Shown: positions 6,278 through 31,044 of the stretch, in pieces
Layout of the letters: every line of letters begins with the position of its first letter
How positions within the stretch are numbered: the stretch's first letter is position 1
NCBI GenBank assembly: GCA_902761655.1
Contig: CACWLD010000014.1
Location: forward strand, 1 to 33,921
DNA: 33,921 nucleotides
Reading direction: 5' to 3'
Origin: an uncultured Bacteroidia bacterium
Lineage (GTDB): Bacteria; Bacteroidota; Bacteroidia; Bacteroidales; UBA932
Notes under the pieces: generated by a model
Told to the model about the DNA's origin: nothing
Database searches by the model: none
The model's input: only the letters and a program-made list of their open reading frames with translations
Position numbers and translations under genes: made by a program

Positions 6278-7012
6278 CTAAATGCCTTCTCCTCCGGAGA
6301 ACATCTCCTGCGTCTTTCCCTGAAGGATGCGGGAGTTTTTCTTGACCGAATGCGTGAGCCAGACGTTTCCGCCTATCACGGAATTCTCGCCAATGGTGAT
6401 CCTTCCCAGGATGGAGGCGTTGGAGTAGACGGTTACGCCGTCTTCCAGGATAGGGTGGCGCGGGAGGTTCGCAGGGTTCCCGTCAGGATCCCTGCGAATG
6501 TTCTTTGCGCCCAACGTAACTCCCTGATATAGAGTTACATTATTCCCAATTATGGTGGTTTCTCCAATGACTATTCCGGTGCCGTGGTCAATGGCAAAGC
6601 CTTCTCCTATCACGGCGGCGGGGTGGATGTCGATTCCGGTCACGGAATGGGCGTGCTCCGTAAGCATCCTGGGGATTACGGGGACTCCCAGCTTGAGAAG
6701 GACGTGTGCGGTGCGGTAATGCAGCATAGCGGTGACTGCGGGGTAGCAGAAGACCACCTCCTTGTCCGTCTTTGCGGCGGGGTCGTTGCGCATTATGGCC
6801 TGCACGTCACCTTCAAGGAGCCTCTTGATTTCAGGCATCTCCTTGGCAAAGGTTTCCGCGATTTCTCTTCCGGCCAGGGCCTCAAGGCTGTCTGCAATGT
6901 GCCAGAGGGCCTTGTGTGGCTCTACATCCGAGTACATAGGGAATACATAGTCCTTAATCTTGGACATAAAGACTTTGAGGTATTCTCCGGTTTCTCTGAA
7001 AGAAATATTCAT
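6278..7012 (-). CDS. cysE: Serine O-acetyltransferase
   Basis: Makes O-acetyl-L-serine from L-serine and acetyl-CoA, the committed step of cysteine synthesis; cytoplasmic. The start at 7012 (MNISFRETGEYL) is chosen because upstream codons would lie inside cysK. An N-terminal helical domain (about 1-130) leads to a left-handed beta-helix of hexapeptide repeats (GIDIHPAAVIGEGFAIDHG, then IVIGETTIIGNNV and TLYQGVTLGAKN), with the Asp-His pair in AIDHGTG. A C-terminal tail of about 20 residues, which in this family can bind CysK or cysteine, ends MFSGGEGI. It ends in Ile like many CysE tails that dock in CysK. The start is only 4 nt after the cysK stop, so the two are co-transcribed from the region carrying the Cys-rich leader. 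Confidence 0.93.
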   Translation of the reverse strand: MNISFRETGEYLKVFMSKIKDYVFPMYSDVEPHKALWHIADSLEALAGREIAETFAKEMPEIKRLLEGDVQAIMRNDPAAKTDKEVVFCYPAVTAMLHYRTAHVLLKLGVPVIPRMLTEHAHSVTGIDIHPAAVIGEGFAIDHGTGIVIGETTIIGNNVTLYQGVTLGAKNIRRDPDGNPANLPRHPILEDGVTVYSNASILGRITIGENSVIGGNVWLTHSVKKNSRILQGKTQEMFSGGEGI

Positions 7013-7016
7013 TTTG

Positions 7017-7952
7017 TTAATCGATAGGGTATCCTTCAAAATCGTAAAGAACTGTGGAGAGATAGCGCTCCCCGGTGTCTGGGAGCAGGGCAACTATGGT
7101 CTTTCCCTTGTTCCTGTCCTGTCTGGCAAGCCTGAGCGCCGCGGCGAAGGCTGCTCCTGACGATATTCCAACCAACAGTCCTTCCTTGGCTGAAAGCATC
7201 CTGGAGGCCTTTATGGCCTCGTCATCAGGGATGGGGATTATGGTATCCACAACGCCTGCGTTGTATGTGTCCGGGACAAATCCGGCTCCAATGCCCTGGA
7301 TCTTATGCTTTCCGGCAATTCCGGTGCTGAGGACCGCTGAGGATTCAGGCTCCACTGCAACCACCTCTACGGCAGGATTATGCTTCTTAAGCGCCTTGCC
7401 CGTGCCGCTTACAGTACCTCCGGTTCCAACTCCGGCTACAAAGATATCAACTTTTCCTTCAGTTGCCTCCCAAATCTCCTCTCCCGTTGTGCGTTCGTGA
7501 GCGGCGGGGTTGGCAGGATTGACAAACTGGCCAAGGATTATGGATCCGGGAGTGGCTTCCCTGATCTCCTCCGCCTTGCGGATGGCTCCTTTCATTCCTT
7601 CTCCGCCGGGGGTGAGCACCAGGCGGGCACCAAGCGCCTTGAGCAGGCTTCTGCGCTCCTGGCTCATAGTCTCCGGCATAGTGAGGACTACCTTGTATCC
7701 TTTGGCGGCGCCTACCCAGGCAAGGCCGACGCCGGTGTTTCCGCTTGTAGGTTCAATAATGGTAGCGCCTGGTTTAAGCACACCTTTCTTCTCTGCATCA
7801 TCAATCATTGCCAGGGCGATGCGGTCCTTTACGCTTCCGCCAGGGTTGAAATACTCAAGTTTGAGCAGGATGTCAGCCTGCTGTCCTTCAAAACCTGAAA
7901 CCTTGAGTACCGGAGTCTTACCGATAAGCTCAACAAGAGAATTGTAAATCAT
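7017..7952 (-). CDS. cysK: Cysteine synthase A (O-acetylserine sulfhydrylase)
   Basis: PLP enzyme that joins O-acetylserine and sulfide to give L-cysteine; cytoplasmic. The start at 7952 ([16 protein letters not shown]) matches the family N-terminus; ten further in-frame residues upstream are not family-like. Key motifs: NPGGSVKDR with the PLP lysine Lys42, TSGNTGVG for substrate carboxylate binding, the phosphate cup [13 protein letters not shown], and GISSGAA near the C-terminus. 311 residues, standard. It is first in the cysK-cysE pair. Between its ATG and the promoter lie a 24-codon ORF with four Cys codons in a row and an intrinsic terminator, so transcription into cysK probably depends on cysteine (or Cys-tRNA) supply. 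Confidence 0.95.
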
Positions 7953-7984: not shown

Positions 7985-8022
7985 AAAAAAGTCCTGCCAA
8001 AGTCTTTACGACCGGCAGGACC
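7985..8022 (-). terminator. Intrinsic terminator upstream of cysK (putative attenuator)
   Basis: On the minus strand, GTCCTGCC (8021-8014) pairs perfectly with GGCAGGAC (7998-7991), with a possible small inner stem (GTC/GAC), and is followed by six T residues (7990-7985). The plus strand has no T-run after it, so it works only toward cysK. The only thing transcribed before it is the Cys-rich leader ORF, 25 nt upstream of the stem, so a terminator here makes sense only as a conditional stop for cysK-cysE. Confidence 0.8.
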
Positions 8023-8046
8023 CTATAGCGCAATCTTTATAGTAAA

Positions 8047-8121
8047 CTATACACGGGTTATTCCGTACCGATCGGTTGGAAGGGTACAGCAACAACATAC
8101 TGATGTATAGGTCCGTTTCAT
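8047..8121 (-). CDS. Poly-cysteine leader peptide of the cysK-cysE operon
   Basis: A 24-codon ORF beginning MKRTYTSVCCCCTLP and ending at TAG (8049-8047). Codons 9-12 are TGT TGT TGC TGT (8097-8086), four Cys codons in a row directly upstream of cysteine-synthesis genes. A TTTG-N19-TTACTTTG promoter ends 9 nt before its ATG, so the transcript would start only a few bases before or at the start codon. An intrinsic terminator lies between its stop and cysK. Alternative pairings are visible: codons 4-7 (CTATACAT) with the segment around the stop (GTGTATAG), and codons 3-6 (GGACCTATA) with the terminator 5' arm region (TATAGGGTCC, one bulge). This is the design of ribosome-mediated attenuation. 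Function is inferred; the ORF and codon run are directly visible. Confidence 0.78.
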   Translation of the reverse strand: MKRTYTSVCCCCTLPTDRYGITRV

Positions 8122-8130
8122 GTTCAAGAG

Positions 8131-8161
8131 CAAAGTAAATTCTTTTTTTTCAAAAATCAAA
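8131..8161 (-). promoter_or_regulatory. Promoter of the Cys leader-cysK-cysE transcript
   Basis: Reading the minus strand, a TTTG -33 element (8161-8158) is separated by exactly 19 nt from TTACTTTG (8138-8131), one mismatch from the Bacteroidota -7 consensus TAnnTTTG. A start of transcription about 5-8 nt further on would fall at roughly 8123-8126, just before the leader ATG at 8121, implying a nearly leaderless short ORF. Confidence 0.6.
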
Positions 8162-30973: not shown

Positions 30974-31044
30974 AGCGGGATACGGGAGTCGGACCCGCCT
31001 CCTTGGCTTGGGAAGCCAATGCACTACCGATGTGCTAATCCCGC
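30974..31044 (-). tRNA. tRNA-Gly, anticodon CCC
   Basis: A 71-nt cloverleaf on the minus strand: acceptor GCGGGAT / ATCCCGC, D stem GCAC/GTGC with GG in the loop, anticodon stem TTGGC/GCCAA with loop TTCCCAA (anticodon CCC), 4-nt variable region, T stem GCGGG/CCCGT, discriminator T. CCA is not encoded. The T loop reads TCCGACT, so position 55 is C instead of the nearly universal T (pseudouridine). It decodes GGG. Confidence 0.93.

Follow-up and report, generated by a model that had tools for sequence, protein, structure and literature searches.

A conserved candidate cysteine attenuator upstream of cysK-cysE in rumen Bacteroidales

Results

A cysteine-rich leader lies upstream of cysK-cysE

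The window is the full 33,921-nt stretch of DNA that was analyzed, and all coordinates count from its first letter. On its minus strand lie cysK and cysE, preceded by a short leader ORF with four tandem Cys codons, a hairpin and a T tract. The features of the locus, with the helices (1:2, 2:3 and 3:4) named for the regions that pair, are as follows.

8158..8161, minus strand: TTTG, putative -33 box, read from the sequence
8131..8138, minus strand: TTACTTTG, putative -7 box, 19 nt after the TTTG at 8161-8158, read from the sequence
8047..8121, minus strand: leader ORF of 24 codons, MKRTYTSVCCCCTLPTDRYGITRV and stop, from the ORF list and relatives
8086..8097, minus strand: four tandem Cys codons TGT TGT TGC TGT, codons 9-12, the putative sensor
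8083..8088, minus strand: region 1, TGTACC, the final Cys codon plus the one that follows it; pairs with region 2
8063..8073, minus strand: region 2, GATCGGTACGG, the switching strand; pairs with region 1 or region 3
8010..8019, minus strand: region 3, CCTGCCGGTC, shared by the terminator (as its 5' arm) and the antiterminator (as its 3' arm), from alignment covariation
7991..8021, minus strand: intrinsic terminator hairpin 3:4, GTCCTGCC-15 nt-GGCAGGAC, -18.8 kcal/mol
7985..7990, minus strand: T tract TTTTTT, read from the sequence
7017..7952, minus strand: cysK, cysteine synthase A
6278..7012, minus strand: cysE, serine O-acetyltransferase, 4 nt after cysK

CysK matches TIGR01139 with 437 bits (cut-off 350.95). 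The top match of CysE, TIGR01172 with 162 bits, is under its cut-off of 210.65, and NF041874 (serine O-acetyltransferase EpsC), with 151 bits, is over its cut-off of 150. An initial annotation of this DNA had described a promoter-like TTTG-N19 element, a 24-codon ORF with TGT TGT TGC TGT at codons 9-12, a GC-rich hairpin with six T residues, and cysK and cysE downstream. All of these were recovered: the promoter-like element by sequence reading at 8161-8131 on the minus strand, the ORF at 8121-8047, the hairpin and T residues at 8021-7991 and 7990-7985, and the two genes by matches over cut-off to TIGR01139 and NF041874.

Region 2, GATCGGTACGG, begins 12 nt past the Cys run, and the predicted fold of the window leader is better than that of 200/200 shuffles (z -3.74). 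The terminator hairpin at 8021-7991 was not listed by a simple terminator scan; its 15-nt apical part exceeds the loop limit of 8 in that tool. Across the whole window, Rfam 15 at gathering cut-offs returned nothing but a tRNA at 30974-31044.

The leader is conserved among close relatives of the cysK locus

Loci bearing cysK were collected from a genus search (101 genomes, 60 with a cysK match, 30 loci taken), a family search (199 genomes, 116 with a cysK match, 27 further loci taken) and a collection of genome contigs, from which the best 80 of 514 relatives were taken. The nearest relatives in the contigs collection were rumen Bacteroidales metagenome-assembled genomes, for example, one from yak rumen (L058) with a CysK that is 95% identical. 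The 137 loci gave 136 upstream regions, of which 122 were distinct, the window's own included. Short ORFs bearing at least three Cys codons in a run or near-run were present in 36 regions; L115 and L119, which have TTG-start frames approximately 340 nt upstream without a nearby terminator, were dropped, and L014, which has just two Cys codons, was added. The leader of L075 is cut by a contig end and was excluded from the count. The initial annotation had proposed looking for the Cys run and terminator in relatives, and its interpretation was not refuted: a Cys-run leader was found in 35 of the 122 distinct regions, and the parser recovered a terminator hairpin and T tract in 32 of the 33 leaders that were read, missing the hairpin of the exception, L076. 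Two of the 35, L021 and L103, were lost by the start-codon rule and are absent from the fold statistics.

Binned by CysK identity, the leader was present in 4/4 regions at 90% or above, 11/18 at 80-90%, 13/30 at 75-80%, 6/15 at 70-75%, 1/35 at 65-70% and 0/20 below 65%. It was therefore found in 34 of the 67 regions at 70% CysK identity or above, and was not found in the other 33, nor in 54 of the 55 regions below 70%. The leader tends to be absent where cysK closely follows another gene: of the 33 regions without a leader at CysK identity of at least 70%, 23 have an open frame (80 codons or longer) whose end lies no more than 100 nt from cysK, versus 4 of the 34 with a leader. A relative of cysE is present in 31/35 leader loci versus 36/87 other loci.

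The Cys run is interrupted in L009, L060 and L078, and the ORFs of L014, L071 and L076 end soon after it. A [DG]-[RW]-Y-G motif recurs together with the Cys run in many of the leader peptides, the remainder of which varies. In one further locus, L010, a terminator with the family's CCTGCCAATC arm lies just before cysK, and the ORF ahead of it has 16 codons and is Cys-free; this is perhaps a decayed leader.

The Cys runs of the 33 leaders contain 90 TGT and 27 TGC codons, and exactly eight codons precede the run in 26/32 leaders. Four consecutive TGY codons (TGYx4) occur once in the window versus 0.12 expected, and at least once in 11/100 shuffles. In the cysK upstream regions (at most 300 nt each, 36,172 nt in total), which are related and not independent, TGYx4 is found in 17/122, compared with five occurrences on both strands of the remaining 1,120,616 nt of those loci, an enrichment of approximately a hundredfold. 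The bare Cys run is only mildly unusual, and it is the run plus its position that is significant. The initial annotation had judged the Cys codons very unlikely by chance, which holds for the run in its place (17/122 regions) but not for the run alone (11/100 shuffles).

The leader ORF is predicted to start close to the mRNA 5' end

The σABfr consensus is given as TAnnTTTG, with the element centered at -7, in the available part of PMC7366714. The predicted promoter of the window is σABfr-like, its TTACTTTG departing from the consensus at the second letter. Among 32 leaders (L002, at a contig end, was omitted), the positions at which TTTG ends peak at 8 and 36 nt ahead of the leader start. TTTG ends 5-9 nt ahead of the start codon in 22/32, and in 21 of those 22 a TTG is found another 25-31 nt upstream; the exceptions to this spacing are L014, L017, L018, L020, L026, L027, L073, L088, L096 and L099. 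Because the leader starts 5-9 nt past the TTTG box, the mRNA should be nearly leaderless, with a 5' UTR that, from the promoter position, would be approximately 2-6 nt. A start codon almost at the 5' end would stand out, since approximately 3.7% of Bacteroides thetaiotaomicron 5' UTRs are shorter than 10 nt according to the available part of PMC7366714. In L073 (2249-2328), the leader ATG lies 1 nt past the 3' end of a tRNA-His gene, and tRNA processing could therefore itself yield a leaderless mRNA there.

Three mutually exclusive helices covary

The initial annotation had described the terminator, which is borne out here, but had no antiterminator; one was found, formed by regions 2 and 3, and it covaries. 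Across 32 leaders, the mean pairing energy of region 2 with its own region 3 is -16.8 kcal/mol, versus -13.5 kcal/mol for cross-species pairs; the own-pair mean was matched in 0/20,000 permutations, and the own region 3 is the best of all partners in only 5/32. When region 2 of each leader was shuffled for comparison, 22/32 leaders gave p ≤ 0.05. Compensating changes in 2:3 include GATTGGTA with TGCCAATC, GGTTGGCAGG with CCTGTCAATC, GGATGGTGCA with TGCATCATCC, and GACCGA with TCGGTC.

All three helices were evaluated on an alignment of 30 rows from the 33 leaders, the near-identical L032, L035 and L038 being left out, against 500 shuffles, which ignore kinship. For the antiterminator 2:3, 93.0% of cells are paired and 6/10 pairs are double-changed, in 23 cells; none of the 500 shuffles was as high for cells paired, changed cells or covariation score, and the helix is less distinct in double-changed pairs (12/500) and further pair types (74/500). 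For the terminator 3:4, 90.8% of cells are paired and 8/8 pairs are double-changed, in 39 cells, with 0/500 shuffles as high on all five measures. The 1:2 hairpin has 90.0% of cells paired (1/500 shuffles), 5/6 pairs double-changed (1/500), 13 double-changed cells (0/500), and further pair types at 13/500. When slid by 1-3 columns, a control that keeps kinship and favors a structure taken from one row, here L001, the helices had 23-48% (1:2), 21-45% (2:3) and 33-53% (3:4) of cells paired. RNAalifold without guidance returned 1:2 and 3:4.

In 26/32 leaders, the 2:3 duplex starts 9-13 nt past the Cys run, where, by a footprint estimate, a ribosome stalled on the first of the Cys codons would not cover it. 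The ORFs of L014 and L076 terminate where region 2 begins, their stop codons overlapping its first bases, and region 2 is nonetheless preserved in both; it is therefore an RNA element rather than a peptide element. Ribosome-free minimum-energy folds up to region 3 are mixed, with at least four pairs of 1:2 in 25/32 leaders and at least six pairs of 2:3 kept in 15/32. In folds representing the stalled state, in which region 4 is left out, at least six pairs of 2:3 form in 32/32; shuffled stretches often pair too, and p ≤ 0.05 is reached in 12/32. The leader ORF, the terminator, the mutually exclusive antiterminator and the 1:2 hairpin over the control codons together constitute the anatomy of a trp-type attenuator, and this anatomy, its conservation and the covariation of all three helices are directly visible in the aligned leaders. 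A chance origin of the arrangement was rejected on the 2:3 permutations, the covariation of the three helices and the TGYx4 enrichment.

Cys leaders beyond the near relatives, and leaders for other amino acids

A covariance model was built on the cysK leaders and searched against 299 family genomes, among them that of the window. It gave 14 matches at E ≤ 1.3e-8, most of them training sequences or near copies, and 14/14 lie before cysK: L229, L238, L240 and L241 were read directly, L231 was placed by the cysK 3' portion that follows it, and the remaining strong matches were placed by coordinates. L231, L240 and L241 are new leaders. Those that were read among six weaker family matches (E ≤ 1e-4) were not Cys leaders. 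Within the window's own genome, no second Cys leader was found at E ≤ 1, the other match (E 0.52) being a His leader.

In the order, the model matched 89/294 genomes at E ≤ 0.01, and 29 loci were taken besides the window. Among those taken, the matches were mostly to any terminator, and one was a Cys leader (L141), outside the family, before cysE-cysK (cysE named by eye); three others were Trp leaders (L140, L142 and L153) and two were His leaders (L145 and L146). L150 (E 5e-5) was rejected as a Cys leader, since it lies inside a long open frame resembling a membrane acyltransferase, and an E value near 1e-5 is therefore no proof. A cysK match was present in 172/294 genomes of the order, and of 60 upstream regions chosen from other families, one was accepted, L224, again before cysK. 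Cys-rich frames 442-685 nt upstream in L187, L195, L196 and L202 were taken as spurious by place alone. Cys leaders thus extend to two further families, represented by L141 and L224.

Leaders for other amino acids were also encountered. In the window's own genome (L139 from 1498, G000:C6:23650-23782), a poly-His leader, MTNNSIITLHHHHHRI and stop, with a terminator lies before hisG (named by eye). A hisG search of 59 family genomes gave 22 loci (L248-L269), and a poly-His short ORF is upstream of hisG in 14/22, the own genome included in both counts. Poly-His ORFs before hisG (named by eye) are also present in two genomes of another family (L145 and L146). Short ORFs with WWW precede trpE-like genes in other families (L140, L142 and L153, from approximately 1500, genes named by eye), with a visible terminator after the Trp ORF in L140 and L142. 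In L242 and L243, from approximately 1500, there is a Tyr-rich leader, MRTILSNRYSYCYSRSFDRV and stop, with a terminator, and the next gene, which would encode a catabolic enzyme, resembles by eye one for tyrosine phenol-lyase or tryptophanase.

Discussion

A model for cysteine-responsive transcription attenuation

Sequence and comparative evidence indicate that the cysK-cysE leader is very probably a cysteine-responsive, ribosome-mediated transcription attenuator of the Escherichia coli trp type that senses charged tRNA-Cys; the earlier reading as a ribosome-mediated attenuator is supported by the conservation, the terminator and the covarying antiterminator. We infer the transcription start, translation of the ORF, ribosome stalling, coupling to the polymerase and the response to cysteine. 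Transcription would start a few nucleotides ahead of the leader ATG, and the ribosome would initiate almost at the 5' end. With ample Cys-tRNA, the ribosome would pass the Cys codons toward the stop codon and cover region 2, leaving region 3 free for region 4, and RNA polymerase would stop at approximately 7985. When Cys-tRNA is scarce, the ribosome would stall at codons 9-12 and cover region 1, and the free region 2 would pair with region 3 on its emergence, such that no terminator forms and cysK-cysE is transcribed. If no ribosome were present, 1:2 and 3:4 could form and transcription would stop too.

The nearest published poly-Cys leaders suggest another use of a stalled ribosome, in which the stall governs access to the cysK start codon rather than termination. 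The mycobacterial poly-Cys leaders are said to be leaderless, going by the title of Canestrari 2020, and the available part of PMC13236596 describes translation attenuation. Here, a T-tract terminator is parsed in 32/33 leaders with 8/8 counted stem pairs covarying, 25 nt or more separate the hairpin from cysK in 31/32 (17 nt in L066), and Bacteroidetes mRNAs are said, in the part of PMC7366714 available, to be without Shine-Dalgarno sequences that could be hidden, which together make translation attenuation very improbable. Slightly less probable still is a functional Cys-rich peptide, binding metal or thiol, encoded ahead of an ordinary terminator. The recurrence of the Cys run and the [DG]-[RW]-Y-G motif in many peptides would fit such a role, but the rest of the peptide varies, the ORFs of L014, L071 and L076 end soon after the Cys run and two of these loci, L014 and L076, still have region 2, the WYG codons are explained by pairing with region 3, and a plain terminator has no need of a covarying antiterminator.

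Least probable of all is that the Cys run has no part in control and that some other 5' UTR sensor, such as a T-box, a riboswitch or an RNA-binding protein, drives the terminator. All such systems share a terminator with an alternative pairing; against this, the only Rfam hit in the window at gathering cut-offs is the tRNA, and the Cys codons are the conserved core of the leader, with their roughly hundredfold enrichment. T-box leaders are usually longer than approximately 100 nt, and the approximately 100 nt from the ATG to the terminator is short for one.

Relationship to known attenuators

The trpL and hisL attenuators of Proteobacteria combine a leader ORF, exclusive 1:2, 2:3 and 3:4 helices and a terminator. 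The cysK-cysE leader resembles them in its ORF with control codons, its exclusive helices and its terminator before a biosynthetic operon, and differs in the amino acid, cysteine, in the phylum, Bacteroidota, and in having almost no predicted 5' UTR; it is likened to them by anatomy, not by sequence. The initial annotation had cited mycobacterial poly-Cys ORFs as a precedent, and they remain the nearest poly-Cys one, with Cys runs in a short, nearly leaderless or leaderless ORF before cysteine-biosynthesis genes, as far as the available parts of the sources describe them; in the present leaders, near-leaderless character is predicted from promoter position, in 22/32. The precedent appears not to extend to the mechanism: theirs is described as translation attenuation, and no conserved terminator is reported in the available part of PMC1262725, whereas the anatomy here is that of transcription attenuation, with a covarying terminator and antiterminator. 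The uORFC-8-2 element upstream of cysS in Rhodobacterales shares a tandem-Cys uORF, an intrinsic terminator and predicted ribosome-mediated attenuation, according to the available part of PMC8632094. By that description, it is set apart by having two Cys codons, by preceding cysS, which encodes a tRNA ligase and is not a biosynthetic gene, and by its occurrence in Alphaproteobacteria; the present leader precedes cysK-cysE in Bacteroidales.

As far as searched, the combination of amino acid, genes and phylum is new. The initial annotation was unaware of any described Cys leader ahead of these genes in Bacteroidota, and none was found in searches of open PMC full text; Lopatovskaya 2010, reportedly a survey of attenuation in bacteria, could include a case from this phylum. 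None is described in the available parts of PMC1262725, PMC8632094, PMC7366714, PMC13236596, PMC4833913, PMC2965389, PMC11109978 and PMC6429828.

Implications for Bacteroidota

The leader appears to be a real, conserved and anatomically complete attenuator with a classical mechanism. It provides a well-supported candidate cis-regulatory switch for cysteine synthesis, with every part located, in rumen Bacteroidales represented here solely by metagenome-assembled genomes. The poly-His ORFs before hisG and the Trp ORFs before trpE suggest a wider attenuation system, and we somewhat favor the view that Bacteroidota possess a general, undescribed set of ribosome-mediated attenuators, for Cys at cysK-cysE, His at hisG, Trp at trpE and perhaps Tyr, of which the Cys ones would be nearly leaderless. 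The poly-His ORFs in the same family also suggest that unannotated leader genes have been overlooked in Bacteroidota. Such attenuation requires the ribosome to stay close behind the polymerase, and transcription-translation coupling in Bacteroidota would therefore be directly testable with a reporter; if the general attenuator system is true, transcription and translation would be tightly coupled in this phylum.
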